A program made the position numbers and the translations under genes. Below the pieces are notes generated by a model. It saw only the letters and a program-made list of their open reading frames with translations, made no database searches and had not been told where the DNA came from. A stretch of DNA of 64,000 bases from Gracilaria domingensis (lineage: Eukaryota; Rhodophyta; Florideophyceae; Gracilariales; Gracilariaceae). Numbering within the stretch: position 1 is the stretch's first letter; each line of letters starts with the position of its first letter. The stretch covers positions 1 to 64,000 of the forward strand of contig VCMS01000160.1 in the NCBI GenBank assembly GCA_022539475.1, written 5' to 3'. Of the stretch, positions 1 to 58,859 are shown piece by piece.

Positions 1-300
1 CAATGACGTTTTGACATTTGGTGTCAATGTACAGCCTGCTGGCATATCCTTTCTATGTTCATATGTATATGCTTTGTAATAGTATTACTACTGCGTATAA
101 CTTCGCTGAAGAACTCATAAGTGGTTCTAATCGATGGCGTTCTATTCTCACTTCCACTTCGAGGCGCCTGCGTCCTCATTATTGGCAGTCGTCATTCACT
201 ACTACTTTCTCTCAGCACTTCATTCAACGCTGGCCTCCGCTTCCAGCAACAATTCTCCCTACGACCATTGGTCTTCTCCATGTAACCGCCTATCCCATCC

Positions 301-2395
301 TTATCGGACAACAGTTCCATCCTCCGCCTCCTCCTCCTCGTCACATGACAAACATAGGTCGATATCTCGACCCGATGAAGCAGCATCAGGTAGTGTGTAA
401 CCTTCTGGTACATGTACATGTGGTATCTTAACCGGCAAATCCATAGACTCGGGCCTTTCACGCTTGTCCATCCCCACTTTGCTCCAGCATGCTGTCAACT
501 CACCGACGGCCCACGAATACGGTAGCGGTGGATGATTATCTTCTTCGCTGGATACACCTCCGACATACTCGCAACTGTTGGTTTGTTCATTACCGCACCA
601 GTTGATGGCTTCCAGCGCTCACGCCAGAGAGGAGCCCTCTTTACCAGAGGCCATTACAAAGTTACCGGGGTTTACCCCGAGTGATTCATTTGTTTCCTCG
701 TAGCCAGACCACTGAAGTCGGTGTGCAGACGTCTGCGCCTTTGGCACTTTCTCGTCGTCCCGCAGAAATGCTGACCACCTACAGTTTTTCGGAGTGTTAC
801 AATCTTCACAGCTTCCCTTGCATTGTCCCATAGTACAAAGCCGCGCAAATTGTACCCATTCGAACATCAAGTAAAGCACGCGACCTTACAACCCACTGAG
901 CTCCTCATTATCCTTCGGCTTCTCCACCGTACCCCAACGTGTCGACATCACTCTCCTCTCAAATAGTCCATCGCTACCGTCCTTCCATCCTTGATCATAG
1001 TTGATTATTTGAACAAACGACTTCTGTTCCTCCCCTTTCCGTATATCCGGCATCGCTCCATACTCATTCTCGAAGAAGTCCACCAACTTCCCCGACACAT
1101 CTCCGAACTCCCGAACTTTTTCCCAACTCCTCCCATTTAGAGACACCATTATCCGTCGCAAAGCCATCAAGCACGCAATATCCATTCTGCTTTAGCTCAG
1201 CTTGCATTCGGGCGAAGCACATTTGCCCAAATTCGTCATGCTCCTTCGCCGCAACCCACAGCAACTCTTCATCGTCCATACCTGTCGGCCGAGTACGAGG
1301 ATACTGCATACCAAATATCTCCGCCCGTAGGCGATGTTCAGCCCTTGCAGCGTGCCAAAAGACAAGATGGTGTACATCTCTGAGATTCGAGACATTTAGC
1401 AGCTCCTACCTATGTCCCTTCGGCAAGTGAATGACTCTGAGCCAGGGGTCCTTGTGCTCAATTACGTTCTTCCCTTGCCATTCCTGCGGTCTCAGCCTGA
1501 CATACCCGCACCATGATGGGTTCAGTGGGCCATCATATGGGTCACCTCGAACAAGTCCGTGCTCCTCAGATTCCGGAAGAGCTGTAGGTAACTCGTCATC
1601 AAATGACCCCCCACCTGTCTCTTGCTGATCGTCTGGCGCAGCATCTTTCTCGACGGTGACAACCCGTGGAACTGTCACAGAAAGAAGCTCATCGTCATCC
1701 ACAAATGCAGAACTGCCTGCGTTCTCTGCATTCGCTCCCTCTCCCAATGCCACGAACTGAACCTTCATCGACCTTCCTCTCAGCACATGTTCATTTAGTT
1801 GAGACATCAGATCATCCGGTGTCATGCTGTTCAGAGTAGATCTCATCTGTTGTGTGAAAGTCTTTCTCCGTTTCTTCCTCGGCGGAGCCCGCTGTTCTTC
1901 TTCAGAGCTATCCAGAACTTCTATGGCACCTCGATTTCGGCCGTGCTCAATTTCCCTATAACTCACCTGCGCCCGTTCTCGTGCACTTCTTCGCGGCTCC
2001 CCTTCTTCACTGGCAGATGTTGCAGCAGCAGCAGCGGGAGTTCTCCTCTTCGTCACGGACTGCTTCACTGGTGCGGGGGGCGGAATTACTTTGAGCATCG
2101 TCCGCAATCGATTCTGAACGGAAGTCGTGGCAGTTCTAATTGAGTTCGTCCTGCTCCGAACACGCGGCAATGTGTTGAAGTTCACAACTTGTCCCAAAAG
2201 GAACTGATACACAGCTGCGTTTTTGTCTGGGTCTTCAACGTCATCTTCATTCGATAGAGCAGAAAGACTGACTTCGCGTTTCAGGAACACTTCCATGGAC
2301 TCTTCCTCGTTTAGTTCATTCCTCACTGCTCGAGCCGCGTGGAACAAAGACGCTGCTCTATCATAAAAGAAACCTCGAACCTCCTCAAAGCTTTT
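301..2395 (-). CDS. 2-oxoglutarate/Fe(II) oxygenase-like protein, several reading-frame segments
   Basis: This stretch follows the ParB-like ORF on the minus strand; an in-frame TGA separates them. The first part (2395-1406) is a linker rich in Ser, Glu and Arg, with a basic PPRKKRRK stretch. From about 1400 down to 301 the reading frame changes several times, but the segments carry the signature order of a double-stranded beta-helix 2OG-Fe(II) oxygenase: NGYCVLDGF near 1200, then LHTDF (metal-binding HxD, near 720), SSLW near 635, HAGA (distal His, near 487) and LRYHMY (candidate 2OG-binding Arg, near 435). A GTAAGG...CAAG interval at 817-889 (73 nt) links the frames before and at LHTDF and matches the intron size of the GH16 gene in this window. 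A 30-nt GT...AG interval at 1380-1409 removes another stop. Other breaks look like mutations. TET/JBP kinship is possible but unproven. Confidence 0.5.
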
Positions 2396-3157
2396 TCATT
2401 GCTTTGTCTTCGTCGACTTGCCCTTCAATAGAAACATCTGAAAACAATCAAGAATGAAGGAAAACTCCTCGGCATCCAAAACATATAGCGGAGTATGGGA
2501 CAGATGTGTGAGACCTATGTCACTCATACTCTCACATATATTCTCGAAATGGGCCAGCATTCCCTCACGAGACATGAGTTGCAGGGCGACATTGGCATAT
2601 CTCAGATACTGACGCTCTTGCACAGTCCCAATCAGTTGGCTCTCCTTCAACACTTCTGTCACTTCTGCAGGATCCACGTCTGCCGGCGTCACCCACTCAA
2701 CATCTTCAATTAGAATGGCGACCACACTAACTATAGAATGTATCTTGTCTGCAAACATCATCCTTCGCATGGTACTCGTCGACTCATTGAGGTACGAAGC
2801 AACACATAACAATTCCTTCATCCGAATGGGCCTCCCATCTCTTCGTATCAGCAGATTGCAACTCCAAAACTTGGCTAATCGCTTCCACTTCGGTGCACCA
2901 GTCGCTGCCAAATATTGTATAGCTTTCAGACGATGCAAACCATCTACAATGAAGCACTTCTTCGTTAGGCGTCCCTTGTCAGTATCGCTATCTCCCGTAG
3001 TAGCATCTTGTAAGGCCACCACTGGAGAACCCATCGACTGCAATATCCCCCGCTCCTCCATACTCTTCACAAGGGCTTCAACGTGGCTTTTACTTACTCC
3101 ACGGAGTAAATTGGGCGGAGTGTGCACCAGATTGATGTCAACAAAAACAACAACCAT
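2396..3157 (-). CDS. ParB-like nuclease-domain protein
   Basis: The reading frame opens with MVVVFVDIN and contains a ParB/Srx-type domain. Visible parts are a first strand (VDINLV), a helix that scans with SKSHVEALVKSMEERGI, and the family's FIVDGLHRLKAI motif, the counterpart of the GERR/DGHHR box that binds phosphate or nucleotide. ParB-like domains act as DNA-binding CTPases or nucleases and recur beside DNA methyltransferases in phages and mobile elements. The frame runs into TGA at 2396 but stays open on the far side in the same frame, so ParB and the oxygenase-like region may form one protein through an intron or read-through. A 27-nt GT...AG interval spans that stop, weakly. Upstream the frame continues without ATG to a TAA shared with the end of the 3206-4090 gene, so the first ATG at 3157 was chosen. 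Confidence 0.65.
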   Translation of the reverse strand: MVVVFVDINLVHTPPNLLRGVSKSHVEALVKSMEERGILQSMGSPVVALQDATTGDSDTDKGRLTKKCFIVDGLHRLKAIQYLAATGAPKWKRLAKFWSCNLLIRRDGRPIRMKELLCVASYLNESTSTMRRMMFADKIHSIVSVVAILIEDVEWVTPADVDPAEVTEVLKESQLIGTVQERQYLRYANVALQLMSREGMLAHFENICESMSDIGLTHLSHTPLYVLDAEEFSFILDCFQMFLLKGKSTKTKQ

Positions 3158-3205
3158 CCGGTAGTGATTGAGGTTCACCTTTGGTACCTTCTGACGAATT
3201 CGTCT

Positions 3206-4090
3206 TTACGTCTTGCTCCGAGTAGGTGTCCCTTGTGTTCCAGACCGCTCGCCAGAAACACTTGAACGTGCTATTCTTGCGTACAGAGGCACAACGTCAT
3301 CGTTCTGCTGCTCCGCAGTTTCTTGTGCAGTTTGGGGTACAGATGAACCAGCTCCTTGTGCGGATTGCGCATCCGCGTCTGGAAGGGAACCTTTTATGAT
3401 CTCATCTTCCTCTTCTTGCACAGCCGTCCCGTGCTGAACCGTCTGTTTCGACGCAGAAGTTCCCCTTAGGTCGACGGTCTGATTCATCGCAGGAGATGCC
3501 CTTTTCGACGCAGTGGGCTTCGTAGCGGAGGTAAACTTTGTTTGACCTGTCCGCTTCGTAGTTGGGGATGATCTCGTCTCTATAGACCGCTTCGTAACAA
3601 ACGACGGACCTGCCCGCGGAGGTGCTACTGATGCGCTACCTCTCGGTGTTGATGAACTTCGAATTGGCTCCGTGCGGCTTGTCGGCGTCATCAACTTACT
3701 CATAGCGCTCACCGTTCGTCGCTTGGACGCCGGAATGCTGGCTGCTACCGGTTCTATCATTTTCTCATCCCAAGAAGCGGCCGTCCGGAGATCCTGGATG
3801 TATTGTGGAAGATTCAGGCCCTCCGCCCGGTAAGGGTAGAACGTCTGACCGCTTCGACTGATGAGAATATTATAAACCACCACAAGACCTGGGTCCAATT
3901 GCTTCCCGTTCAACTCGCGGCGTAGAACACTTCCAATTCCATGCAACAACGCTTCCCCGACTATCACCTTTCCTTTATTCTCAATATCCATCTGCAGAGA
4001 AACCCGCATTCCACCTTGCAATGATCGAGTGCTCCGCCGAGTGCGAGGAGTCACGCTTTGCGTACGCCTTCGAACAGGAGTTGGCTTCAT
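3206..4090 (-). CDS. Basic Ser/Thr-rich protein of unknown family, first leftward gene
   Basis: A 294-residue protein starting at an ATG about 75 nt downstream of a TTTAAA box in the divergent promoter. The first 25 residues are strongly basic (RRRTQSVTPRTRRSTR). Residues 30-125 look folded, with alternating hydrophobic stretches (VIVGEALLHGIGSVL, LVVVYNILISR) and a YPYRAEGLNLPQYIQ segment. The rest is low-complexity Ser/Thr/Lys/Arg sequence followed by an acidic QEEEDEII patch. I do not recognise the family. A basic tail suggests nucleic-acid binding, which is inference only. It is followed after 48 nt by the ParB-like gene on the same strand, suggesting co-expression from one promoter. Confidence 0.6.
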   Translation of the reverse strand: MKPTPVRRRTQSVTPRTRRSTRSLQGGMRVSLQMDIENKGKVIVGEALLHGIGSVLRRELNGKQLDPGLVVVYNILISRSGQTFYPYRAEGLNLPQYIQDLRTAASWDEKMIEPVAASIPASKRRTVSAMSKLMTPTSRTEPIRSSSTPRGSASVAPPRAGPSFVTKRSIETRSSPTTKRTGQTKFTSATKPTASKRASPAMNQTVDLRGTSASKQTVQHGTAVQEEEDEIIKGSLPDADAQSAQGAGSSVPQTAQETAEQQNDDVVPLYARIARSSVSGERSGTQGTPTRSKT

Positions 4091-4536
4091 GTTGAACAGC
4101 TATTTCAGTGAAAGGTGTATATCAACAATACGCTCGCTCTGGACGATACAAGAACGGAGGCGAGCCTTTAAATGGCGATTTACGCTGGGCATCCCCGCTT
4201 TCGGAAGCTCCTTCCAGCGCACTTCCAGTCTCCTCCGTGTCCTGTCCGTGGCCGCTCGCACGCTGATTGTACGCCTTAGAGTCGTAGAGTTCGCGCAATG
4301 ATGACTCACGCGAGCAATGGTCGCGCTCTCTAATCGTGCTCTTCAAATGCTTTGCATAGTAGTCAAGAGTACACTCATTCACTTTCATGTACAGCCTACT
4401 CCCGCCAATACACGTGGACAGCGGCGCCAACGTACCGGCGGCCGGTTGTAGCGAAATCACTGCGGGGCGGCGTGTTTTGGGAGGTCCCGGAAAGGCGCCG
4501 GAATGTGGCCAGAACGTGCCCGCGGGCGGGAAGGTC

Positions 4537-4568
4537 GGTCGTGTTAGGGTAGGTACCCTAACACGACC
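4537..4568. repeat. 32-nt palindrome, left copy
   Basis: A near-perfect palindrome with arms GGTCGTGTTAGGGT and its complement, and a 4-nt centre AGGT. It is duplicated exactly 100 nt further right with centre ACCT, the reverse complement, so the two copies are mirror images about the promoter axis. A dimeric DNA-binding protein is the natural reader; a transposase or the element's own ParB-like protein are candidates by inference. Confidence 0.75.
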
Positions 4569-4636
4569 GGACCCCCCGGCCCGCGGGCATAAAATCGCAC
4601 ATTTTTCAAAAAATCGCCCAAAACGTGCCCGCGGCC

Positions 4637-4668
4637 GGGGGGGTCCGGTCGTGTTAGGGTACCTACCC
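4637..4668. repeat. 32-nt palindrome, right copy
   Basis: Second copy of the palindrome, with identical arms and centre ACCT. It is flanked by G/C runs (GGGGGGGTCC and CCCCCCCGCC) that mirror those around the left copy. Together the two copies form the core of the symmetric control region. Confidence 0.75.
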
Positions 4669-5100
4669 TAACACGACCGACCCCCCCGCCCGCGGGCACC
4701 TTTTGGCCACATTCTGGCGCCTTTCGGAGACCTCCCAAAACACACCCCCCGGCACTTCCGGCAGTGATTTCGCTGCACACGCCGTTCACATATATCGAAC
4801 TAGAGAAAACTAGCGCTTCACACCCACTTGGTCCGCGACTATTAGCACAATACGCGACCTTTGCAATAGCTCCGAATCGCGACGTGGCCGACACGCGACG
4901 CTATGGCACCCGCTCGAAGCGGCACGGACACCGACCTCAGAAGGGAGCCGACACGGACACGGACGAGACCGGTAGTGCGCTGGGAGGAGCTGCCGAAAGC
5001 GGGGATGCCCAGCCTAAGTCGCCATTTAAAGGCTCGCCTCCGTTGTTTGCGCTGAAGCGATGGATTCCAACGATAATGGAGAGGAGATACTCCTATCGAC

Positions 5101-6063
5101 ATGAGTGCTCCGGCTCCCGCGTTCCATGCATATGTCAGACTTTTCTTGGTTCTTCGCGATGCTTTGGCAAACAGCGATGGAGGCCTTGATCGGCCACGGG
5201 ACGTGGTGTTTAGAGGGCTAATAGAGTTCTGCGCCGAGAACTATAAGAATATTCCGGAGGCAAGGAAGATGTTTGAGGAGGCCACTAACTCCAAGAACCT
5301 GCAGAACTTGACACTGCAACAGCTGCGAAAGAGTGTTGTGAATAACAAACCTGTAGAACAACGATATCTTGTAACGAAGCTTCTTGACAAGAAGGACGGG
5401 AATGAGGACCAGATACTCAGCGATTCTTTGCTTCTCTCTATGGATATGGGTATATACCTACCGGTGCGATGCCTGGTTGGTTATTTCATGACCAGGAGAA
5501 AGCAGGTTCTGAAGACAACAGTGTTCATCCCACCAACATCTCTGAACCCATTTGAGGTCGTTATATACTTATCATACCTCGGCCACATAATGGGAGAGAA
5601 CGACAACATCAGAATGATGAAGAAGAAACAACCGAAAAAGAAACGAAAAGTGAACCATGCACCATCTGTGTACATACCCACTTTTACGCCGTTCTCCAAA
5701 GACAACTGTGATCGACTGGGATTCGCTATCAGTGAGGTCGTATGGGCATGGAGTTGTTTTGCGGCTCATCTTGGATACACGAACGTTCAGAACATGGTGA
5801 AACCATACATTTACATGAATATGCAGACGTTGAAGTATACAGCGCTAGAGACACGGGAGTCTGGTTATGCCCTGCCGAGCCAGAGTACTCAATTCAACAC
5901 ACAGGATGTGCCACAGAGCAGTACTAGTGGATCGGTGGAGACCTTGAGTGATGAATTCGATACAAACCTCCGAATACTGGCTAAGGAATTTTTGACAGAC
6001 CTCGAAACCATATGCACTCACGATAGCCTCTATAGCTTACGGGCTGATCAGATGAGGAACTAG
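5101..6063 (+). CDS. Unknown protein, first rightward gene of the transposon
   Basis: A 320-residue protein whose ATG lies 70 nt after a TTTAAA box. It has no signal peptide or clear membrane segment. A Lys-rich stretch (KKKQPKKKRKV, about residues 179-189) is a good nuclear localisation signal, resembling the SV40 type. The rest is mostly helical-looking, with an acidic C-terminal third containing Ser/Thr-rich sequence. I do not recognise the family. The next gene follows after only 21 nt on the same strand, and the pair probably shares the divergent promoter. Nuclear action fits the DNA- and chromatin-modifying neighbour. Confidence 0.65.
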   Translation: MSAPAPAFHAYVRLFLVLRDALANSDGGLDRPRDVVFRGLIEFCAENYKNIPEARKMFEEATNSKNLQNLTLQQLRKSVVNNKPVEQRYLVTKLLDKKDGNEDQILSDSLLLSMDMGIYLPVRCLVGYFMTRRKQVLKTTVFIPPTSLNPFEVVIYLSYLGHIMGENDNIRMMKKKQPKKKRKVNHAPSVYIPTFTPFSKDNCDRLGFAISEVVWAWSCFAAHLGYTNVQNMVKPYIYMNMQTLKYTALETRESGYALPSQSTQFNTQDVPQSSTSGSVETLSDEFDTNLRILAKEFLTDLETICTHDSLYSLRADQMRN

Positions 6064-6084
6064 ATAGAGTTTTCGGAGATACGG

Positions 6085-8195
6085 ATGGATATCGTATCTG
6101 GTTCTGACTCCGGTGAGTTGCCTGCTCGATTTCAGAAGTTTTCGGAGTTGCTATGGAAACCGATACAGGATATGCGTCATGCAGCAGGGTTCCATGTCGG
6201 CATTCACGCCAAACCTGATATTGAACTGACGAAAACCCCTAAAACTTCCGGTAATGCCGAACCTTCTTCGACCAAGTCTGCCCCACTCCCACCTCGTCGA
6301 GAGTATATGGACCTCGTGAGCTCCGATAGCGACGTCTTCGAGAAACCAGTGAATCTTGCGGAGCATGAATCTCGGGTTGCCGGTTACAACATCCAAAAGA
6401 CTGGTATTGAGCCGCCCATGAAGGGGATATCCAGTCTCCTTCGAATGAATATGGACAAGGTGTGGAAGGGGATGAGAAAGTCATACTTTGTAGCGTACAA
6501 CTGTGACATGAAGGACCTGAGGCACACACACGAAACGTTTGTGAATCAGAGTGAGATTTTATGGGGTGAGGCACAGCTTGTCCTAACAGACCCTCCCTTT
6601 AACACTCGAAGGAAGAGAAGCAAACGGAATAGTGCTCACGATGTCTTCAGTGAGGATGACATGATCAGTACGGCTGACTTAATAAGTTCCGCGCTTCGGT
6701 CAGGTGGGCACTTCATTATATTCTATGCCATGGCACAGTTTCATGTTTGGCACAGGATACTTTCGGAAACGGCGAGTACGAAAGATGAAGCTGGAAGCGA
6801 AGGTAAGCCAGAACTCATGCCTTCGTTTAAAGTGGATGGGAATCCACTGGTGTTCATCCGGGATCGAAGTAATGTTGGAGGGAATCCACGGAAGTTTGGG
6901 ATACAGCCCGTAACGGAGTACGCCGTTCATGGGGTGAAGCGTGGATTGCGACCATCGGAGGAAGCCAGTCTTACTCCATTTGAGGAGAACAAATTCATTC
7001 CTTCTACTTTCCCGGCTAACAGGAATGTAATTGACCGGGTGCCAAAACCGAGAGCGGTGAAGTGGTTGACATGGAAGGTAAATGATCCAGGTAGTTCAGT
7101 ACCAAGTAGGCAGTACATAAGACCGGAGCAGAAGTCAAGGGAGTTGATGAAAGAGTTGATATGTCGCTTCACAAGACCGGGTGATCTTGTCATGGACATG
7201 TTCGCGGGAACTTTTTCTACGGGTATGGCGTGCCTATCGCTGACAAAGCATATGAAGTTCTTGGGGTGCGAGAAGAATAGGCCATGTTTCAGCCATGCGA
7301 AGCACCATATAACGACTCTTATGTCCGAAGTTCTTCGCGGGGGAAAGAATGACATCGTGGTTGAACAGGAGGTCGTGGATGCTGCTTCAACGACTTATGA
7401 ACGGGTTCCACATCAAGACCGAGATCGGCTTGAATGGGAGGCTCCATTTGAATACCCCGAGTACCAAGTGATGCCTGCACATATTACTCAGTTCCTAGGA
7501 AGATACTGGAAGGACTGGGACTTTGTCGACAAATGTGGACAGCATACTGTACATCTTTGGGAGGAGAAGTACCGAGGAGCTCTGAATCTAATGGATATGC
7601 ATATGCTGTTGACTGTTGAAGCCAATCGCTATGGCTTACATGTAGCATCTTCTAAGATTCGACATCCCCGTGCTGGTATGGGGGTGTTCACGGAACATAA
7701 CATATTGGCTGGGGAGACTATCTGTCATTTTTATGGAACTTTGGTATACACGGATCTGACGAACCGGAAGGAAAGACACTTAACGTATGGAAGTGGCTGT
7801 CTCGGAGCAACTCCAGTGCGGTACAAGTTGTTTTCTATGATGGTCACTGTGACTGGTACGGAGTTTCTGCACCTGAAGAACAGACCGGGACAGGCTCAGA
7901 ATAGAAAGGAGAGCGAAGTGTACATTGTCCCGGCGCCTTTTCGTATCGGGGCTACATTAACGACGCCGGATATCATGCCGGGGATCCTGATTTATCGTAG
8001 CCCCGGTCAAACAGGACTCGAAGTGCAAATGTGCAGATGGTGGAAGCGAAGTCCGTGATACAGTTTAAGTCCGACCTTTCTAACTATGCTCTACTTCGTT
8101 GTAGAGCAGTAAGAGAGATTGAGAGGGGCGAAGAGTTGTATTTCAACTACGGAGAGCAGTACCCCTGGGACTGGGCTCTGACATTGGAGCAATAG
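6085..8195 (+). CDS. DNA amino-methyltransferase fused to a SET domain
   Basis: The first 480 residues form a Rossmann-type methyltransferase with permuted (beta-like) order: catalytic motif IV DPPF at about residue 169, a variable target-recognition stretch, then the AdoMet-binding motif DMFAGTFSTG at about 371. DPPF-type enzymes methylate N6 of adenine or N4 of cytosine. From about residue 525 a SET domain begins (HPRAGMGVF, then ETICHFYGTLVY), as in histone lysine methyltransferases. The first frame ends at 8058, but the SET core continues in another frame with GYINDAG (near 7960), ANVQMVEAK and GEELYFNYGEQY, ending with TAG at 8195. The frame changes around 7860-7920 and a TAG lies at 7998; short GT...AG intervals could remove both, or the copy is damaged. 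The joint architecture would allow marking of both DNA and histones. Confidence 0.72.
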
Positions 8196-8425
8196 ATGAG
8201 TTCAGTACCAAATAGGAAGTAAATATGCTTGTGAATGTTGCAGCTGCCTGCAATACGCATTGTACATGTACACTGGAGCTCTTCATCTGTAACGGCGATA
8301 TTTGCGACCCATTGGGCACCTCAAATTCCTAAAAAGCAGGAACTGCGGAGTCTCCCGGAATATCTGAACCATGCACCCCCCCCCCCCCAACAATTTCGTT
8401 TCATTACCCCATTTATCTCCACAAT
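8196..8425 (+). other. Spacer between methyltransferase-SET and the next gene
   Basis: No ORF or clear promoter box was found. It contains a run of 13 C residues at 8376-8388 shortly before the next ATG, a site prone to length change. Confidence 0.5.
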
Positions 8426-10820
8426 ATGGGTATAACGCCGAGAAAGCGAAATAGTACGCAGCGGAACAAGAAAGAACAGAAGAAGAGAAGAGCATCAGAT
8501 GATAAGAATCAGGCTACAAGCACCGCACGTCCTAAACGGAAGTCGTCCTCGACGAAGGAGAGAGTCAGTGGGCGTCCTTCTACAGTACTCTCTCGCCCAT
8601 CTCGCAGCGGAGCGTCTTCCGGAATTGCGTCAAGAATTCGTGGATCAGCGAACGATGTCGTGCCGTCAACTGCCGGTAATGCAAATCGTGCATCTGTCTC
8701 TGCTCCTCAAGAAGATGAGGTAACTCGGCCCAGCGGGTCAGGACAAGAGGGCATGACAACTGGAAATGAAGAGGTTCGTATGACACCAAAACCTTCATGT
8801 CCCCGGCCGATATCGAAGACCGGAGCTACTGGGGCGCGGGTTACGCCGCCCAGTGGATCTGGACAACAAGGGACAATGAAGAGAAGTCGTGAGAGCCCTA
8901 GTATATTAAGATCGTCACGTCCCTCCCTGTCTTCTAGAACTGGGGCCGCTATGAATCGTATCATGCCTCGCAATGGGTCCGAACAAGGGAGAAAGACAAT
9001 AAGAAATCGAGAGACAACTGATAGACGAGTTACTCCTCGACCTTCCCCTCTTTCTAAAACGGGGGCCGCTGCAGCTCGTACGTGGCCCAATTCATCTGAT
9101 ATACGATGCCATGGAGGAGAACAGACACGGGAGGTGGAGCTCGGAGCCGTTGCAAGGGTGGAAACAGAACGCCTGCAGCCTCTCGTGTCTAAGGGTATGG
9201 CACATGAGGATAGTTCCGATAACGAAATAACACCGAATCCTGCGGCATTACCGGGGCCTGTCGCCGGAGAGGCTAGAGAAATACCGGAAGATATCCACAC
9301 TGGTGTGAATTCAACCTCTATGAACAGACGTGATCTTTTAAATGAACTGAATTGCTTGAAAGGAAAGGTTAAGACGCTACAAGAGGACTTGATGGTTCGG
9401 GGAATTCTAGTGAAGGTCGCCCAAGAGCAGAGTACGGCTCTGAAAAAGAGGCTTGAAGAGAAGGATCTAGTCATTGAAGGGCTAAGAGGGGCACTGAAAC
9501 AGGAGGGAGATAGGAGTACACGTGCTGGTGAACCTGGGCAGACTGGTCGAAAGAAGCATAAAATTGAGGTGTGCGACGAGTTTCGAGGGGTTGCTCGAGC
9601 AGTGTATCAGAACATGCTGACGTGGGTAAGGAGAGAAACAAGTGAGCTATGGCTCGAAGGTGAGTCGCTCACCCGAAATTGGGGTAACCGTGCCGAGAAG
9701 GTGGAAGACGCAACTGAGAGTGGGGAAGGGCTTATTGAGTCGGAGGAAGGTGGTTCATACATGGTTCCTAAAAACCCCGTGGAGCTCTTGAGCAGTTTTG
9801 GCATGTTCACACCGTCGGTAGAGGGGGGCCAGATGCTTTGCTGAAGAAAATGGTTGAAAGTGAGTTGAAGGAGTTGAGCTGGGAAGGTATTAGAAAATCA
9901 TCTCTTACCGACAGGTGTATACTAGAACTTTGTGCATATATGTGCCTTAGGCAGAGAATGCGGCAGACCATGAGTGACGTCGTGGGCGTTCGGAAGAGAA
10001 ATACGAGGGATAAACTATTTCTGCTCCTGGGGTACGATCTGATTTGGAGAAGAACAAAGCTGGTAGAAGAGAATGCTGACGAACTCACAATGCAGTTGAA
10101 GGAAGAGCGGAAGAACATACTGCGTCTTGACGAAAATGGTGTACCGAACACTTCATGGTGGAGGAAAGCCCCATTTGTTCGTCTAAAGTACTCCAATGCG
10201 GACAATGTCGAGGATATGCGGACGGAAGATCAAGACTTGTTCTTCCGAAACCGTGCCGGGGTACAAGTACTGAAGGAGTTTATTGGGTATGATGTGGAAG
10301 ACAAGGATACGGGCACCTTTTTAGATGGCACAATACTGTTGCTGGCACGTTTGGACGTTTGGGTGTTGACGGTTGTGACCCTTCTAAGTACGGATGTGTC
10401 AAGGGGTGGCCAGAGACAGAAACTGTTTACAAAGAAGTTTGCCCAACTGCTACCTCTGTGTTTAAAGAATGTTCTGGGGGATGTTAGGCAACGTGTCTTG
10501 AGGACCAATTCCAGCGAGTTTCATAAGTTTGGAACGACAACGGAAGATTGGACTAAGGTTCTTGGTAATGACATGAGAGAGGCTACATTTGGATATCGAA
10601 TGCCGTCGAACGGAAGACTTTACCTCACTGTGAAAGAACAATTTTTATTGACAGTGTGAGCCGACGATTGGGTTCTATTAGCGATTGTTTCGTTGGTGAA
10701 TGCGAGGAAGGGGATATGGAGTTCAAGGAAATGGACATGAACGATTTCAGAAGTAGCACAGGATCACAAGAAAAGGCACCACAAGGTGAACATGTAGAGG
10801 ATGGAGCCCTTAATGTTTAA
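8426..10820 (+). CDS. Basic repeat/coiled-coil protein of unknown family
   Basis: The N-terminal 80 residues are extremely basic (KRNSTQRNKKEQKKRR). Residues about 85-230 contain diverged repeats of some 40-45 residues built on P-S-G-S-G-Q/E-Q-G ... R-P-S-x-x-S-K/R-T-G-A. A coiled coil follows (ELNCLKGKVKTLQEDL to IEGLRGALKQ). The first frame stops at 9844; a second, open from before that point, continues with LLKKMVESELKELSW and stops at 10659; a third runs from there to TAA at 10820. The first change sits in a G6 run and the second in a T5 run, so homopolymer indels or assembly errors are the simplest explanation of one original gene of about 790 codons. The C-terminal half looks globular and helical. 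No known family is recognised. The last codons overlap the transposase stop on the other strand. Confidence 0.55.
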
Positions 10821-13800
10821 GACTGTACAAGATCAACGTGCTCAGTTGGTCCTTCATCTGAATCATGATAGAATCGATTGATGTAGAATCGGTGTTGAAA
10901 ACATTGAAGTGGAGGACAAAAAGGTGGAGCAGGGTAGTTTGATCGAACAACATGGACAGTTCCCTGTAGTGCAGAAGCCGGAACCATCCCGTACCAAGGA
11001 GTTAACTCTACGATAGTCTCCGCTTTGGAATGACGAGGGAACGGAACAGTGTGGTTCTTTTCATCGTTTGTAGCCCACCGTAAAGATATGCATTTCAATA
11101 TGTAATCGATGTTTGTTGCGGGGGGTAAAACCTCGAAATACCGGACGAATGCCACCTCTGGTGCGGTAAGTGCAGAATCAAGGAGAGATATTCGAATCAG
11201 AGCGACTACCTGGGCAACCCAAGTCTCTGAATCTTCTCCGCTTATCAATACAGTGGAAAACTTTGGCTTTATATTGGGACCAAATGCTGGAGAAGCGAAG
11301 ACTCGTTGGATGATGGGGTATTTGGGTCGTCCTAGCTTAAGTGCCTTAGAAGACGAATCGAAGTGTTCAAGAGTCGGAACGAAACCGCCTTTCACAAGGG
11401 CCGAATTCACCAGAGTTATCATTGTCTTTTCTGGGAAGTATGTAATAGAGTGCTCATCCAGTGTTTCTTTCATGAGATTGAGGAAAGGAGGAAGGGCCTG
11501 TTCACCAATTTGGTCAAGAATCGACCTTGTGTCCGTACTTGAGAACATCTCTCTAACAGCAGTCCATGTTTTTGAACTGGACATACTTGAAACACAAAGT
11601 TGAAGAGCTCGTAAAGTGAAAGAACGCCCTCTCATTGCAAATCGAGGAAGCTGTGTGGAGGTTCCTGGTAAACCTGGATTACGCTGGAAAGGAGTATTGC
11701 CATTCCATTGCTTTCTAACATGTCCGTGCTCAATGGAGCGAATAGTCTCCTCCACAGCCGTTGCTGTTTTTCTGGACGTCTTTTTGTAGTGTCTCATAAA
11801 TAGCAGGTGAGCATGTTCGTATATGCCTGCGTCGTAGTACTTGATACTTTCCAGACGGCGAATATCGTCCACGAGATGATCGAGAAGATGAAACTTCAGA
11901 GTTCCCAGTCTGGAGGGATGAAAATCCGCCAGAGTCTTTGTTGCGGAACGCTTGAAGGCTTCAATCCCCGAACTAAGACACAGGAGAGAGCTTTCAGTCC
12001 AATACGGGTCACGATTGTATGTGAATAAGGTCGAAAGCAAGTCCGAGTACTGAGAGAAAACGGTTGTGATTGGGGCAACGTCCTGTTCTCCACAGCATAT
12101 GTCAAAGAATGCTCCTATGAAGGGGAAGACCATGTCAAGTGCTTTGTAGTTTTTGGCCTCCAGCATTCCACAGAGACCGTCTTTCGTGAAGATACCATTC
12201 AAAGATTTGCCTTTCTCCTGCGTGGAGAAATCGATATGTAAACCTTTGGCAGGAGAATCGCGTTCTATGGCAGCTAGAATTGCGTTTGCATGGTTGAGGA
12301 GTTGGGTGCGTATCATTCGAAATGAACGCGATGCAGATGTTTCTGTTGTGGTGCACAGGGTGTCTGACTGCAGTCTCTCGATTGTGGCCATTTTTATCAG
12401 CTTCGAGATGCCGGGATGCAAGTTGTGTAATGGTTCGAATGGAAACAGAGTGTATGGAGACAATCCCGCGATCATTCCAAGGCTTACGGAAGTTTCGAGG
12501 AACGAAGGAATGAGAGATATGGAATTTGAACGCATCAGAGTATCCGCTTGAGATCTCCTCTCCCTCGCACGACGTGGACGTCTTTCCGCTTCGTCTTTTT
12601 GCGCATGTTGCAAGATAGCTGTGTATGTCTTTCGGATGCTTTTCGTGTGCTTTTGAGAACGTCCGTTGAATGAGGTGGGAATAGGACTGCATAAAGATGA
12701 GCGAGCAGCTTTGCATCTATGACACGGGCTTTCCGTTTTGGTCCCATGAAGAATGGACAGAATGCCCTTAGCCTCAGGAATATCCGCACAATAACTTGCA
12801 AGCAGAGGATGGCACACTCGACTTAGTTTGTCTTCGCCGATGAACTGAAAACCTTTCTGCGTGAGATTTAGAATGGACTCCAGAACTTGACAAAGAGAGT
12901 CTTGAAGGATTTGCATCCTGGACTCGCGTAGAGACTTGCTAGACACGAATGGCATTGCGTCTGCTTCAGATGCGGAAACCTCGATCAGTGTGGTAGGGAA
13001 GTATGCCACTACTGTGAGGTCATCACGGATGCACTTACGGCGTAGCTCTTCGGAGAAGTTGAGAAATATGAGGTGAAGAGGATAGGCGGTAACCGATGTT
13101 TGCTTTAGAGTTGTTGAAGACTTATCGGTGTATACCTGCAGAAGACCTACGAAAGATTCACTGTAACTTATTTCTTGGGAGTACCACACTATTCTACTAT
13201 CCAAAGAGCCCATGACCATTTCCTTCAGTTTTGAGGTGGCGTCTCTTGCGAGAGAGCCGGACATGGGGTGAGATATTTTCGTGGAGTGGGTCTGAGGTAT
13301 AGGATGGAAGAATGTGTTTTCGTTGTTAGCCAACTGGAGCTGTTTCACAAGTGTCTGAACGAGGTCTCTCGTGTAGAGGGTGGCGCTGAACTTACATCCT
13401 TCTGGCGAGACAGTTCTTCGATTGAAACCGTCCTTTGAGGCGTATCGTTCGAAAATGGCGTTCTTCAGTTCTGTACAGCGCTTGGAACTTGTTATGGTCT
13501 CTTTGAATCGATTTTGCGAGAATCGCGGGTCCCGAAGTAGCCCAATTAGCTCGTCTGCCTCACGATGACCAAGGTTGGAAGCTACTGAAGCCAGACAAAC
13601 CGTGAGATAATCCATATGCAAATCACCGAGGGCCTCCTCAGAAGGCACTGGGCGGGAACTGCTTCCGTGTTCTCGCTCTAATGACGCGGGACTCGGGGAA
13701 GGAGAAACACAATGCGAAGTGTCCGGAATGGGAGGGGCACACGGAGTGGGGTCAACGATTTCCTCGGACACCGGAGGCTCGAGAAGGCGACAAGGAGCAG

Positions 13801-13996
13801 TGACGGTTTCGGAAGATGCGGCCGCGGGCGTGGAAAGCTTGAGACGCTTGCTTCTCCGAATGGGCGGCCTATTTTCGTCTTCCAGCGCTGCTTTCAGACG
13901 AAACGGGCAATGGTTGACATGCTGTTGAAGAGATAAGACTCCTCGGCGAGTAACGAACGGGCACCCACGCTTCTTATGTGTACAGTAGTAGACCAT
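10817..13996 (-). CDS. Plavaka/CACTA-like transposase
   Basis: An uninterrupted 1059-residue ORF; the first ATG, MVYYC, is used, although the frame is open upstream through non-ATG codons. The N-terminus has a Cys/His finger (YYCTHKKRGCPF with H-x4-C after a helix) and a basic RRSKRLK stretch, as in DNA-binding ends of Plavaka proteins. The central part shows ADIPEAKGILSI followed by CHRCKAARSS, matching the 'D-P-E ... C-x-x-C' insertion of the CACTA-type DDE nuclease. It is followed by EPLHNLHPGISKLI, LKFHLLDHLVDDIRRL and EHAHLLFMRHYKKTSRK, which mirror the conserved LH, HxLxHYxxxIRxxG and ExxH blocks of the fungal Plavaka group. It would cut and join the ends of this element. It converges with the neighbouring gene, the stop codons overlapping by 3 nt at TTTAA. 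The coding frame is intact, suggesting a young or selected copy. Confidence 0.72.
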   Translation of the reverse strand: MVYYCTHKKRGCPFVTRRGVLSLQQHVNHCPFRLKAALEDENRPPIRRSKRLKLSTPAAASSETVTAPCRLLEPPVSEEIVDPTPCAPPIPDTSHCVSPSPSPASLEREHGSSSRPVPSEEALGDLHMDYLTVCLASVASNLGHREADELIGLLRDPRFSQNRFKETITSSKRCTELKNAIFERYASKDGFNRRTVSPEGCKFSATLYTRDLVQTLVKQLQLANNENTFFHPIPQTHSTKISHPMSGSLARDATSKLKEMVMGSLDSRIVWYSQEISYSESFVGLLQVYTDKSSTTLKQTSVTAYPLHLIFLNFSEELRRKCIRDDLTVVAYFPTTLIEVSASEADAMPFVSSKSLRESRMQILQDSLCQVLESILNLTQKGFQFIGEDKLSRVCHPLLASYCADIPEAKGILSILHGTKTESPCHRCKAARSSLCSPIPTSFNGRSQKHTKSIRKTYTAILQHAQKDEAERRPRRARERRSQADTLMRSNSISLIPSFLETSVSLGMIAGLSPYTLFPFEPLHNLHPGISKLIKMATIERLQSDTLCTTTETSASRSFRMIRTQLLNHANAILAAIERDSPAKGLHIDFSTQEKGKSLNGIFTKDGLCGMLEAKNYKALDMVFPFIGAFFDICCGEQDVAPITTVFSQYSDLLSTLFTYNRDPYWTESSLLCLSSGIEAFKRSATKTLADFHPSRLGTLKFHLLDHLVDDIRRLESIKYYDAGIYEHAHLLFMRHYKKTSRKTATAVEETIRSIEHGHVRKQWNGNTPFQRNPGLPGTSTQLPRFAMRGRSFTLRALQLCVSSMSSSKTWTAVREMFSSTDTRSILDQIGEQALPPFLNLMKETLDEHSITYFPEKTMITLVNSALVKGGFVPTLEHFDSSSKALKLGRPKYPIIQRVFASPAFGPNIKPKFSTVLISGEDSETWVAQVVALIRISLLDSALTAPEVAFVRYFEVLPPATNIDYILKCISLRWATNDEKNHTVPFPRHSKAETIVELTPWYGMVPASALQGTVHVVRSNYPAPPFCPPLQCFQHRFYINRFYHDSDEGPTEHVDLVQS

Positions 13997-14414
13997 GGGA
14001 AGAAGAAATGAACGAGAAACGACGACAAAGACTGCAAGGGAAGGTCGTCCGAAGGGAGAACGAGGTCGAGCGACAGTCAAGATCGACGTAATGCTGAGAA
14101 AGGAGAATATATTTTGAGTTTAAATCACGTGCTTTCGTTCAAAAAGGAACGTAGGTACACGTCGAACTCAACACAAGGGTGTACTTCTCGTATTATCTAC
14201 CACTGGTTATAAACCTGTGGTTTTGCAACGTTGTACGCTGTACACCTGTCCAATCTCGCCCACGAAAATAAATCTCTTCCCTCCGCAGCCGCGCCGCCCG
14301 TCCGACGTCCGACCTTCTGTTACCGTCGTGATCCGTGCCATTCACATCCACGCGTTCTACTCCGCTCCGTCGTACTTTTTTGCGCCCTCGCACTCGCTAC
14401 GAAGCAGCGTGCTG

Positions 14415-14493
14415 AGAAAGAGAATGAAGTACGCTTCATCTCTGCTTAATGGATTTCATTAAGCGGACATGAAGCGTACCTCATTCTCTTTCT
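14415..14493. repeat. Long hairpin with nearly perfect arms
   Basis: Arms of about 24 nt (AGAAAGAGAATGAAGTACGC and its complement, one mismatch) are extended by a second stem around GCTTAATG/CATTAAGC, with a 5-nt loop. It lies 0.4 kb upstream of the transposase start. It may be a fold-back insertion or a regulatory/terminal structure of the large transposon. Confidence 0.7.
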
Positions 14494-14499
14494 TCGCCC

Positions 14500-14930
14500 T
14501 CGTCGGACGCCTCCATAAAGCGGACATCATCCGTATCTCACGGATGTATTCCGTGCAGTCTTTTCGTAGGTTCTCTTCCATATTCTTCTATGTATCTTTG
14601 CTCTAAACTAATCCATCCTCACCACGTTTTTTCGCGCTATGCGACATGTAAACGGCAGAAAATAAGCTTTGGGTTACCGGGTTCCCGTTTTCAGCCTCCA
14701 ACTCGTTCCATTTGTTCAACTACGTTCTGCTTACGATATGTTCCATCTTGTTCTACGTCTTGCTACTAACATTGTCTTGATTGAAGGTAACCACTCTTTG
14801 ACGTGCGTCCTTTGTATTTCTTCCGACGTTCACAACGACTGCAAGTACGCAACCAGTTTCTTTTCGTCTCTCAAGATCGATCTCTGACTGCTCGTGTAAC
14901 CTATCACGCTGTATTGCCGATCTTGGTTCA
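14500..14930. other. Non-coding stretch without recognisable feature
   Basis: Only short random ORFs are present. No RNA gene or promoter could be supported. Confidence 0.4.
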
Positions 14931-15400
14931 CTTTGTTGCGCTATAGGCGTCTCTAGCTTCTCGCATCTTGCGCTACTTTTGGTTTGTTGGCGATCTTGGT
15001 TCCGCCATAGACTCTTCTCTCTTCTCGCGTCTTGCGCTGCTTTTGGTGTATTGGCGATATTGGTTGATATTTGTTGACTGGCTCGGGCGATAGGTTCATC
15101 ATTGGCGATCTTGGTTGACTAGGTTGCGCCATAGGATGGTCTCTCTCTTCTCGCGTCTACCGTTACTTTTGGTGCAATGGCGATATGGTTTGACTTGGTT
15201 GCTTCATAGGCTCGCCTCTCTTCTCGCGCCTTACGTTGATCTTCTTGTATTGGCGATATTGGTTGACTACCTTGCGGGATAGGCGATTCTGGTACTTGAT
15301 TGCGACATAGGCTGCTCTCTCGTTTATCGCATCTTGCGGTATGTTTGCTGCATGGGCATTCTTGGTGTCGTTGCTTGTGAGTTCTCGCTTCGGGACCTTT
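14930..15400. repeat. Degenerate tandem repeat, subterminal-like
   Basis: About six decayed copies of a unit some 70-95 nt long, each containing TTGGCGATNTTGGTT, a TTG.GCxATAGG box and CTCTTCTCGCGTCTTGCG. CACTA-type elements often carry subterminal repeats bound by their transposase. This patch lies about 1 kb beyond the transposase 5' end, so a subterminal role is plausible but inferred. Confidence 0.55.
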
Positions 15401-15645
15401 CGCGTTTTACCATGAATGGATTGCTGGTAATCTAACCGATCTTTTTCCTTCTTCTTCTTCCTTTGCGGCTTACTAGGTTCCTCGAATTTTCTAGCGCAAC
15501 GTTTCTGTTTTGCTTTATCAATGGTACGTTCCATCGCATTTCAAATGTATCCAACGGAGCATTGACTAACTTATGAATACTTTCTGCTTGCGTATACAGG
15601 TAAATGACTTTTGATGCGTACGTAGCTCACGAGTTGCAGGTGCAG

Positions 15646-15731
15646 GTTCCTCAAGTAGGGAACCATGCATCTGGGCATGGTTCCCTACATGAGGAACGGA
15701 GAGGATGAGGCGCTTCGCGCCTCATCCTCTC
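15646..15731. repeat. Two adjacent strong hairpins
   Basis: The first (15646-15697) pairs GTTCCTCA..GTAGGGAACCATGC with its complement across a short loop. The second (15699-15731) pairs GAGAGGATGAGGCGC with a perfect complement around TTC. A smaller TGCGGCA..TGCCGCA stem follows near 15782. Such a cluster may mark the right part of the large transposon or be an unrelated fold-back element. Confidence 0.65.
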
Positions 15732-15829
15732 GGAGTGCGTATTTGTTCTACCGATACCGCACTTTGGTGCAGGTGCCCTCTGCGGCATCTGCCGCAGATT
15801 GCGCCTACACCCGCTTAATCATGGGGAAA

Positions 15830-17700
15830 TGGTACTTGTAATATAGCGAAGTAGTGGTTAGCAAAAGCGGTCGATAGAAGAATAGATACGAATAAAACGG
15901 TATGATTTCATAATGGACATCATCTGTACTAGCAACAGTATTCCATGCGTTGCAGGGTATCATTCCGCAGAAGGTATCGTGTAATGTGCACCTTAATGGA
16001 AACTGAACCTAGACTTCGCGAAATACCGTTCAGGTAGCCCTCGACTAAAGAAATAGCACGAGTGGAAAACCCACCTGTATTTACTGCACAGCGATTCTGG
16101 ACGACCCAAGCAATTATCTTCAAATTTTGAAATAATTGATCTCGATATTTCTTCAAAACATTTACTGGACGACCCTTGCCACTTTCTGGACGACCCTCGC
16201 CAAAAACTAGCATCTGCAAGAGACAGACAACAGTAGCATCTCAGAACATGAGGTGTCGAAGTTGGTAACGGATCAACGAAATATGGAAAGCACCTCAGCG
16301 CATCCCTCTCGAGGGCATTATGCTCTACAAGCTACAGATCGAATCTCACCATCTTACACTTCTTTTGTCTTTTTAACAAATTCGCAAGAAAAAGGCCACA
16401 CAACATGTTCAACTGAACCTCATGCTATATCCACATGGGTGCGTCATGATTACAGCCATAATATCGCGGACCATGCCCTCGCTTAACACCATGGTGTGAA
16501 CGCAGTACAGCGTCGTTAGGCACAAACATAACCGCATCTATCGCCCATTTCTCTCCCACATTGCTTTCGTAATAGATCTCGAGCAGATTCGCTTGGTCAC
16601 GTAGGAGAGAAACATTTGGCCTCTGCGTACATCAGCCAACGATAACCGGGCCGATAATTCTAACAGCCTCGTCCTTGTGGGCAACCTTGCTGTTTAATTC
16701 GAATGCTCCAGATGATAACGTGTGCGCGAGCGTGCACATGGCAGCAAGTCACACTCATAACGCCCGACATAACCAACTCTGTTCCATGGCTGCTGATGGC
16801 AGAGTCATTCCCGTATTGAATTTTCACACTATGCTCTGTACGCATAAGTCGGCGCTTGATCAACCCCGCATAGCCAAGACCTGTATGAACGTGCCCTCTG
16901 CGGTCTCTCACTGTACGAATCTCGGGACTGTATAGCGCACCGATCTACATTACCTGGGCCGCGATGGCCGCAGTTGTCGCTCGCATGCGTCGCTCCGGTG
17001 CTGTCAACTCTCAGCCACCTGCATTCTCAAATCTTGGCGCACAGTTGTGGTTCGCATCCAGTACGCTGTTACCGTCGGGTTTCAATGAGGCCGGCAGCCC
17101 GTAGCAAAACGCCATATCGTTGACCTTTCTTCATCCCTTGATCGGCTTCACTTTCACTCCGTTTCCAATCGATCAGCTCCTCCTCTTCTTCTAATTCGCG
17201 CTCTATCTGGTGCGCACGAGACACGCACAGCACTGAAACAATGTGTCAGCTGCGCCCTTCTCTTGCCCGACGCGTTTAATAGATTTTAAACAGAAACGCT
17301 AATCAACGAACTACAAGACCGCCCTATTCAGACTGGGGGTGGATGAACTGCGCCTGGTTTCCGATTAAAAAATTGCTAACTATGCTGTCAAAGAGGCCCG
17401 CTCCTCTTTATAATCTTGAACTGTAGCGCAAGTGACTCGACAACGAAAAAATATTTCGTTGTCGTTAGTTTCTACGCCAGAGCTAGGTTGCGTTGTATTT
17501 GTTTATGTTTGCACGTCTCTTTGGAAATTTTGACTATGTGACGACCACATCTCCCTCCACGCTGGCTCTTCTACTTTCGATGCTTCTCAAGGAGTGGGAT
17601 GTAAAACTGACGCCAAGCTGTGCTGCTCCTGGCGTCCCGCTAGAGGTCTGACCGTGACTTCAGCGAGCTTTCGGGGGGAACTCACTATAAGGCAGCTGGA
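15830..17700. other. Region without supported gene
   Basis: Only short ORFs without coding character. Three copies of CTGGACGACCC occur between 16092 and 16200. No tRNA, rRNA or transposon end could be defined. Confidence 0.4.
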
Positions 17701-17725
17701 CGCACGCGAATACTACCAATAACAA

Positions 17726-19330
17726 GTGGTCTGCAGGGATCCGCCTCGCATAACCTGGGGGAGTATAAGGACTACTCTGGTCATTACAGCGCCAGTTCCT
17801 GCGCTTTTGCCTCAAGCTCGAGCAGCTCGCGCTGCTCAGCGCGAGCTCAATTCGAGCGCTCGCGACCGGAAGACAGACTCACTAAACAAGGGGCTGACGA
17901 CACAGCAGCCCCGAGCAACAAGCAGACAGAGAGGCCTCTGTGCTCTTTTGCTTGTCACCGTTCCCCTTTTTTCGCGTTTCTTTCCGCCCGCGCGACACCT
18001 GGAGCGCTGCGCAAAGCATGCAGACCACTCCAGTTATGGGCCCATCTCAGGTTTCTTTGAAACAATTTGCACCTACGGATCCTCCTATGTTCAATCCGGA
18101 AGGAGATCTGCAGTAGTACCGTAGAGATGTTTCTCGTTGGGTCCCCTCATGCATGTTTGCCTTTCAACATCTTCTCAGGTGAGTGAAGCGTTGGCCATTA
18201 CCTTCCTGAACAACGAAAACCTTAGCGGGGAGACGTTGACTAACGCTAAACTTCAACTCGTCGCCTTACCCAGGGAAACACTTTGATATCCGATTAATAT
18301 TCCTTGGATATGCTTTGGATATCCGAATGATTTCTAGGATATCCATCTGATTTTCGCATTTGGATTTACGGGCGATGTACATAGGATACACGACAATTCT
18401 CACAATATCTATACCAATGATATTCGTCTGATTTCTGGATGTCCGAATGATGTCCGGGCAATTACAAGAGAAGCAACTTTGGTTTTCGAAATCATTCGTC
18501 ATATCTAGTGTTATATCTTTCAAAGCAGTTGATGCATGTCTCAAAGGCATCGAAAGAGTATCATTTCGTACATCATCTATCATATCTACTGGATGTCACA
18601 GGGATATCATGGATATGCGTAAGATATCCAGATGATATTCGAAAGATATCCGGATTTCAAATCTACGGGGTATCATTCTAGCATATGTATACTTCTCTAG
18701 GTTAGCTGAGGCAAAGCAGAAGAAATAATCCGGGCAAGAAGTCACAATCACCAAAGAGTCTCACGAAGCTATGCTCGAATTCCTGGACAAGCTTACCGCA
18801 CACTACAGCGCCTATGATGCTCTATCACAGTCCACCGACAAAGCTGGCACCGTTCGTCGGGAGGCTACAGACCTGGTCGGAGGCACACCTGCGCTTCGCA
18901 AAGAGTACACATCAACATTCGAATACCTCAATGATCGCTCCGTTCAAGTGAACGAGATGCGAGACATGTTCTCAGCTGGTCCCAGGTGCAAGCTGAATCT
19001 TTGACGACGCTTTGAGGGTGGTCCGCAATCTGACCTTTTCTCCCAAGAGGACAGACAAATCGTACACTAAGGCTGACATCGATAATGTGGTGAGCCAGAA
19101 GGTCAACCAAGCACTGGCCGCGTCAAAAGCGCACTGAGTCGCAAGCAGAAGCTTCGATGCCGAACAATAGGAACAGACGTAACCAGTCTGGAAGCTCCTG
19201 TAAAGGCCGCAAGTCCAACAAACGCAAGTCTGATCGCGATACGGGATATTGATACGATTGTGGCTCCAAAACGCACCTCAGAGGAACCCTGGACAGCTAG
19301 ACACCTTCCCATGAGACGAAGCGTCTGCGA
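17726..19330 (+). mobile_element. Retroelement gag-like fossil
   Basis: Scattered short reading frames on the plus strand resemble a gag protein: a helical stretch near 18771-19004 and a zinc-knuckle-like YDCGSKTHLRG near 19250-19285. It is broken at several places and an unrelated repeat patch lies inside it. Family (Ty1/Copia or Ty3/Gypsy) cannot be told from this part. It looks old. Confidence 0.4.
18270..18680. repeat. GATATCC-rich degenerate repeat patch
   Basis: The words GGATATCC, GATATCCG, GATATTCG and GGATGTCCGAATGAT recur about 15 times in 400 nt in both orientations, spaced roughly 15-25 nt. This may be a decayed minisatellite or a fold-back insertion within the gag-like fossil. 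Confidence 0.5.
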
Positions 19331-19369
19331 GCTGAGAGGGACTCAGCATACAAGAACAAAAGAAGCTTC

Positions 19370-19475
19370 CACCCCCGTCGTCCCCGCGAGGGCGGGGACG
19401 GGGACCGCTAGGGGTTTTCCTGATCTCGACACATGTGTGGTGCCGCGTACACCACACGTGTTCCACACGCTCCCC
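19370..19475 (+). repeat. Twin-hairpin repeat, copy 1
   Basis: It consists of a G/C hairpin (CGTCGTCCCCGC with GCGGGGACG), the spacer AGGGGTTTTCCTGATCTCG, and a palindrome built on CACGTGTGGTG and CACCACACGTG. A second, diverged copy in the same orientation lies at 26883-26985, on the other side of the Gypsy fossil. Confidence 0.7.
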
Positions 19476-19568
19476 CGCCTAGCCCGCGCCAGCGTGGTGC
19501 GGGCCAATCAACTAGTGAAAAATCAAATGATTTGTCACGAGTAAGTCGTGGAGGGCAAATAAAGTTGT

Positions 19569-32114: not shown

Positions 32115-32119
32115 GGGGA

Positions 32120-38395: not shown

Positions 38396-38499
38396 CAGAA
38401 TGAATGCGGCTTTTGAATGCGGCACATCGTAGCATGCAGTTCATTTGAAAGCTGATACCAAGGCTGCGCAGCAAGCGGCGCACAGCCGGACACGTACCG

Positions 38500-58838: not shown

Positions 58839-58859
58839 TGTGGTACGCTTCACTATGGG

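Follow-up and report, generated by a model that had tools for sequence, protein, structure and literature searches.

Can a DNA transposon carry its own enzymes for marking both DNA and chromatin? This question is raised by the first part of the stretch of DNA analysed here, 64 kb of contig VCMS01000160.1 (the whole stretch is called the window). In this part, a Plavaka-type transposase gene adjoins a methyltransferase-SET gene and a ParB-like gene, and the latter two genes have a common palindromic upstream region (Table 1). The region is read here, with a probability of about 0.5, as one copy, now decayed, of a large DNA transposon of the EnSpm/Plavaka type, with an accessory module that once served to mark DNA and chromatin. 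The host is most likely a eukaryote, a red alga. The evidence was drawn from the letters of the window, from profile libraries, and from published papers.

The transposase open reading frame (ORF) is uninterrupted, and it is the only unbroken ORF among the genes of the module. Its first ATG is at position 13996, and the stop-free frame reaches position 14119. The match to PF18759 scores 62 bits, with the family cut-off at 26 bits, and covers profile positions 84-272 of 325. Three candidates for the catalytic residues were recognized by eye: D332 (YTDKSS), D446 (YCADIPEAKG), and E768 (IYEHAH), in the numbering of the stop-free frame. A single C(2)C motif (466) and a single H(3)H motif (744) are found between D446 and E768, both of which were chosen by eye without a reference alignment. 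The profile match and the placement of the C(2)C and H(3-4)H motifs indicate that the first-pass annotation of this DNA was right in calling the protein a Plavaka/CACTA-like transposase. The search of PDB sequences with the transposase returned one irrelevant match (E = 0.22). Upstream of the gene, a 79-nt imperfect palindrome (89%) is present at 14415-14493.

The methyltransferase-SET gene encodes two kinds of domain. In the methyltransferase domain, TDPPF is located ahead of DMFAGT, an order that is presumably of the beta-type, and the DPPF form is taken here to point to N6-methyladenine (6mA), with N4-methylcytosine (4mC) also possible. The closest PDB sequences found with phmmer are DpnA (E = 1e-7) and CcrM (E = 1e-5). 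Weak matches were also observed to 98 phage and 20 plasmid records, each with less than 60% identity. The SET domain is represented by two halves. The N-terminal half matches PF00856 with the E-value 0.034 when 7561-8058 is the query and 0.19 when the whole ORF is used, and KMT2A among PDB sequences with 0.02. The C-terminal half matches PF00856 with the E-value 0.003 and EZH2 among PDB sequences with 0.034. The PF00856 matches of both halves are below the Pfam cut-off. The halves are co-linear on the profile and separated by a frame change, and the SET call is convincing because the two weak halves keep the profile order. The earlier description of this gene as a DNA methyltransferase-SET fusion is supported, with SET spread over two frames. 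The gene is interrupted by TAG at 6061-6063, by the frame change at about 7900-7990, and, in the second frame, by another TAG (7998-8000). No Pfam family was recognized in the ORF ahead of the first stop (5077-6063).

The ParB-like gene is transcribed divergently from the methyltransferase-SET gene. Its frame from 4090 to 1064 contains 4 stops in 1009 codons, while 36.8 are expected from the stop-triplet frequency of the window. Because of this scarcity of stops, it is read as a single gene with interruptions at 3206, 2396, and 1406. The interrupting stops are TAA (3208-3206), TGA (2398-2396), and TAG (1408-1406), and the terminal TGA is at 1066-1064. A coding-score scan based on codon usage over 4080-1200 gave moderate support: this frame was the best in 30 of the 49 steps, with one tie. 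Below 1130, coding-like sequence appears to continue in a different frame. The ParB-like domain matches PHROG ParB families with E-values of 7.5e-4, 0.006, and 0.098, and the longer read-through matches the first family alone (E = 0.0053). Motif counts were made over all six frames of the window and compared with expected counts; the pattern DGx[HR]RxxA occurs once, against 0.16 expected. The PHROG matches thereby weakly bear out the ParB-like domain of the first-pass annotation. A phage tblastn search with the ParB-like ORF gave no match. The AlphaFold model of this ORF from a single sequence was uninformative (mean pLDDT, the predicted local distance difference test score, 33) and was discarded.

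In the region where the ParB-like coding sequence appears to continue, motifs similar to those of 2-oxoglutarate (2OG)-Fe(II) oxygenases were recognized by eye. They are GYCVLDGFA, followed by HTD (725-717), HAGAKW (at about 488), and RYHMY (at about 425), and the order HxD..H..R is found in one frame. By the six-frame counts, the loose patterns HxD..HxG..RxH and HxD..HAG..R occur 2 and 4 times against 1.46 and 1.06 expected, respectively, and a tight pattern, composed after the sequence had been seen, occurs once against 0 expected. The odds that this region is a 2OG-Fe(II) oxygenase are about even, and it is treated here as a motif-level candidate; neither Pfam nor PDB supported the oxygenase-like region of the first-pass annotation, and nothing was found to tie it to the TET/JBP group, as had been suggested.

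The 898-bp region between the ParB-like and methyltransferase-SET genes is an imperfect palindrome. The outer arms (4150-4242 and 4955-5047) and the inner arms (4461-4589 and 4626-4754) are each 91% identical. When the halves of 4090-5120 are aligned with each other, the score is 334, and none of 200 shuffles exceeds 42. For the middle parts (4243-4460 and 4755-4954), the score is 25, and the maximum of 500 shuffles was 42; the similarity is therefore confined to the 93 bp on the outside and the 129 bp on the inside. As a DNA hairpin, the sequence 4447-4777 is more stable than shuffled sequences (z-score −22; none of 100 shuffles equally stable). Two 34-bp palindromes with identical arms are present in the inner arms. 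Their half-site core, GTGTTAGGGTA, occurs four times in the window, always in the 34-bp palindromes (with at most 1 mismatch), against 0.56 expected. Both contain back-to-back TTAGGG/CCCTAA, a likeness to telomere repeats which may be by chance. No exact occurrence of the palindrome was found in IMG/VR. No target-site duplication (TSD) was seen by eye around 4150-5047, and the palindrome is thus not evidently a separate inserted element. A bacterial promoter scan of the palindrome, a scan not designed for eukaryotes, gave no match. With the mirrored TATA-like boxes, the natural reading is that of a putative bidirectional promoter with operator-like sites. The first-pass annotation had placed all of the genes around one symmetric promoter; this stands for the ParB-like and methyltransferase-SET genes, while the transposase and the third accessory gene lie outside.

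The third accessory gene, between the methyltransferase-SET and transposase genes, encodes a basic low-complexity N-terminal part and a C-terminal part without a known family. Its frame changes once, at a point between 9772 and 9842. Pfam gave no match to it, and the best PHROG match was an unknown family (E = 0.0068).

Table 1. Features of the transposase and accessory-gene region, in window coordinates.
Feature	Position	Strand	Basis or remark
Candidate decayed 2OG-Fe(II) oxygenase	201..1200	-	By eye; shifted frames
ParB-like gene	1064..4090	-	Four same-frame ORFs split by single stops
ParB/Srx-like domain	2891..3154	-	PHROG ParB-like partition families; motif VDGLHRLKA
Imperfect palindrome (inverted repeat), 898 bp	4150..5047		Between divergent genes
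TTTAAA, TATA-like	4167..4172	-	77 bp 5' of the ParB-like gene ATG
34-bp palindrome	4536..4569		CGGTCGTGTTAGGGTA-GG-TACCCTAACACGACCG
Second 34-bp palindrome	4646..4679		Identical arms, CC centre, inverted relative to the first
TTTAAA, TATA-like, mirror copy	5025..5030	+	71 bp 5' of the methyltransferase ATG
Methyltransferase-SET gene (METHYLTRANSFERASE-SET gene)	5101..8195	+	ORFs, interrupted
N6/N4 DNA methyltransferase domain	6574..7287	+	PF01555, E = 1e-14
SET domain, N-terminal half (GMGVFTEHNI..)	7675..7824	+	PF00856, profile 1-37
SET domain, C-terminal half (..ELYFNYG)	8067..8153	+	PF00856, profile 80-105; shifted frame
Third accessory gene	8426..10659	+	ORFs
Plavaka-type (EnSpm/CACTA-related) transposase ORF	10817..13996	-	Pfam PF18759, E = 6e-17
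Degenerate direct repeats, period ~73 bp	14913..15366		5' of the transposase; subterminal-repeat-like
Two adjoining short palindromes	15646..15731		15646-15697 (85%), 15699-15731 (91%)

Several parts of this arrangement have been described from other transposons. Sola1-1_Ec32 from Ectocarpus, 21.5 kb in length, encodes a 1104-aa protein with ParB and N4C/N6A methyltransferase domains (PMC12477816). The same paper refers, citing Iyer 2011 and Petroll 2025, to similar proteins from transposons of green and red algae, and ParB-methyltransferase proteins are already proposed as a class of accessory proteins of algal transposons. The region analysed here shares with Sola1-1_Ec32 the ParB-like domain and the N4C/N6A-type methyltransferase near a transposase, a methyltransferase gene on the opposite strand, and a suspected algal setting. 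In Sola1-1_Ec32 both domains are in one protein, whereas here ParB-like and methyltransferase genes are two divergent genes. The methyltransferase joined to SET, the Plavaka-type transposase, the common palindromic upstream region, and the broken state of the copy are further differences. The pair may work like the algal ParB-methyltransferase class, with a different architecture.

Red algae were reported to harbour giant EnSpm elements that have more than one accessory gene (Petroll et al. 2025, on Bostrychia, as cited in PMC12477816), and by that citing description they are similar to this region in the combination of an EnSpm-related transposase with several accessory genes. Fungal TET+ PlavakaB families carry a TET/JBP oxygenase (Kojima 2025, PMC12730594). 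These families and the present region have in common a C(2)C and an H(3-4)H motif located between the second D and E, as well as the association with an epigenetic enzyme. The PlavakaB families have the oxygenase and lack the methyltransferase-SET-ParB set of this region, in which no TET/JBP dioxygenase and no CATCA..TGATG ends were found. HarbingerS and MuDR transposons from Phytophthora carry SET histone methyltransferases (PMC12730594), and the SET domain on a DNA transposon is the shared feature; their transposases belong to other superfamilies, and the passage on them mentions no joining of SET with a DNA methyltransferase. The giant repeats of Amoebidium are flanked by Plavaka and contain intron-poor genes with many tyrosine recombinases (PMC11244446). 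They resemble this region in the Plavaka transposase next to long runs of intron-poor genes, and differ from it in the tyrosine recombinases, which are absent from the Pfam matches here.

The first-pass annotation considered that a writer and a possible eraser together with a SET domain would be a new combination. Since ParB-methyltransferase genes (PMC12477816) and SET genes (PMC12730594) in transposons are already in print, the general idea is known, and this claim is reduced. Among the literature matches listed, no title or abstract mentions a DNA methyltransferase-SET or a ParB-2OG fusion in a transposon, and none of these matches describes the split into two divergent genes or the palindromic shared promoter.

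The reading of the region as one decayed element has several observations against it. Pfam matched the ParB-like ORF to no ParB family and to GmrSD_N alone (E = 0.18), a domain that shares the ParB/Srx fold, and matched nothing in its read-through; NCBIfam gave no match to the ORF; and among PDB sequences the best match was an unrelated enzyme (E = 0.92), with no useful match for the read-through. For the candidate oxygenase, Pfam gave no match to any of the three minus frames of 3-1500, nor to the frame-joined translation, and the PDB search with 201-779 was also without match. No second copy of the element was retrieved from the window, IMG/VR, or GTDB. With five protein queries, no other place in the window was better than E = 0.09. 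Single-sequence scans, the reach of which is limited to close relatives, confirmed no relative in IMG/VR with five module and transposase queries, nor in GTDB genomes with the methyltransferase-SET gene; pattern matches were returned in 5 of the 6 IMG/VR and GTDB scans, and no relative was confirmed among them.

The ends of the element belong to the same side of the balance. As Plavaka ends, terminal inverted repeats (TIRs) of TGT..ACA or CATCA..TGATG with a TSD of 2-3 bp were sought. The motif-led scan of 10560-10820 and 1-800 against 14000-17500 gave no qualifying pair, and there was no TIR/TSD pair in any scanned range (left ends in 5100-9000 were not scanned). At 17 of 22 matching positions, 9000-10830 against 14050-16500 gave 1 match, compared with 0 to 4 in 10 shuffles, and 1-5100 against 10600-20000 gave 44 matches, the best with 18/22, a number near chance by arithmetic, without a shuffle control. 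The right end could lie near the two adjoining short palindromes, for which no matching left end was found. The degenerate repeats and these palindromes together also have no left partner. It may be that the left end is at another position, or that the window does not include it. The module may have moved together with the transposase.

The lesions are distributed unevenly. All three accessory genes are interrupted, a state that the first-pass annotation does not mention. Over about 8.4 kb they have 8 lesions (5 stops and 3 frame changes), and outside the lesions they are long stretches poor in stops; the transposase has 0 in 3.2 kb. This contrast could mean different ages and counts against a single element. 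With an even spread of lesions over the coding sequence of about 11.5 kb, the transposase would escape all of them with a chance of about 0.08, a chance compatible with one ageing element as well as with two neighbours of unequal age. The ratio of observed to expected CpG is 0.86-1.12 within 1-16 kb and 0.86-1.23 elsewhere in the window. With no signal of CpG depletion, C-to-T decay through repeat-induced point mutation (RIP) or 5-methylcytosine (5mC) was rejected as the origin of the lesions.

It is somewhat unlikely that the region is made up of two neighbours. In that case a decayed giant element, or its module, would occupy 1-10.7 kb and be the older of the two, and the Plavaka element at about 10.7-15.8 kb would be the younger, having landed alongside it. 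An unbroken transposase beside three broken accessory genes would be expected from such a history, the contrast being suggestive only at the chance given above, and the palindromic region of the module does not flank the transposase. The related gene on Sola1-1_Ec32 (PMC12477816) is on a Sola1 transposon, not Plavaka/EnSpm, and modules of this kind are accordingly not bound to one transposase. On the other hand, the stop of the third accessory gene and that of the transposase are 157 bp apart, tail to tail, which leaves little space for a Plavaka left end, and the TIR/TSD scan of 10560-10820 against 14000-17500 revealed no pair for a separate element.

It is quite improbable that the accessory genes are whole and active, with consensus errors of the assembly or small introns as the source of the stops and frame changes. 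The frame change near 1130 adjoins a run of five A, the frame is unchanged across the single stops, and other ORFs of the window, 417-976 aa in length and chosen for being unbroken, are intact. Errors or introns of this kind fit poorly with the presence of all of TAA, TGA, and TAG among five stops in two genes, with frame changes in three genes, and with the disruption of every minus-strand frame below 900.

SET, methyltransferase, and divergent intron-free genes occur in giant viruses too. That the module is left over from a large DNA virus once integrated here, with the transposase as a passenger, is nevertheless very improbable: in Amoebidium, insertions of giant viruses are found together with Plavaka giant repeats (PMC11244446), but the Pfam matches of the scanned ORFs include neither a capsid nor any other core family of DNA viruses, and none of the five IMG/VR queries confirmed a relative within the close range of those scans.

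The window contains long stop-free genes, a vanadium-chloroperoxidase-type enzyme and a GH16 glycosidase recognized with Pfam, and a weak match to RWP-RK (E = 0.0014, below the family cut-off). These features led to the reading of the DNA as eukaryotic and of the host as probably a red alga. A Ty3/gypsy-type remnant is located on the minus strand at 22000-25600, with reverse transcriptase and RNase H at 23489-24361 and aspartyl protease at 24588-25538. Two adjoining, paralogue-like Sel1/TPR-repeat genes are on the plus strand at 27114-31348. Two mutually similar minus-strand ORFs (31425-32231 and 37733-38440) are of LURP-one type by eye, with no Pfam match. A HARBI1-like DDE_Tnp_4 transposase ORF of 417 aa is found at 47113-48366 (E = 1.7e-17), and direct repeats of 106-111 bp with about 92% identity are at 58133-58738, within a 976-aa ORF (55932-58862). 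Rfam and tRNA scans of the window gave no match.

If the region is a decayed EnSpm/Plavaka-type element, a mechanism can be proposed from its sequence motifs. The palindromic region with its mirrored TATA-like boxes would act as a bidirectional promoter. The ParB-like protein may bind palindromic sites, of which the two 34-bp palindromes would be examples, and the regulation of the gene pair would thereby be tied to the DNA of the element. The methyltransferase would write 6mA (or 4mC) on the element, and the SET domain would methylate histones on it. These DNA and histone marks may keep the element transcribed or label it as a substrate, and a 2OG oxygenase fused to the ParB-like protein may remove or alter a mark. 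The net effect would be an element that stays expressed or recognizable. In its full form, a Plavaka-type giant transposon that marks and regulates itself, with a methyltransferase-SET fusion for DNA and histone marks and a ParB-oxygenase nucleating on the 34-bp promoter palindromes, this proposal is tentative and rather doubtful. The accessory genes are interrupted, and this copy would therefore rely on other copies for the accessory functions; as read, it could supply the transposase at most.

The value of this broken copy is as a pointer to relatives. If the proposal is true, transposons with their own DNA and histone methyltransferases would offer a direct test of whether silencing is evaded by writing marks, beyond erasing them. 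The SET-joined version, with a candidate palindromic binding site adjoining it, would make one concrete site and two concrete activities testable.

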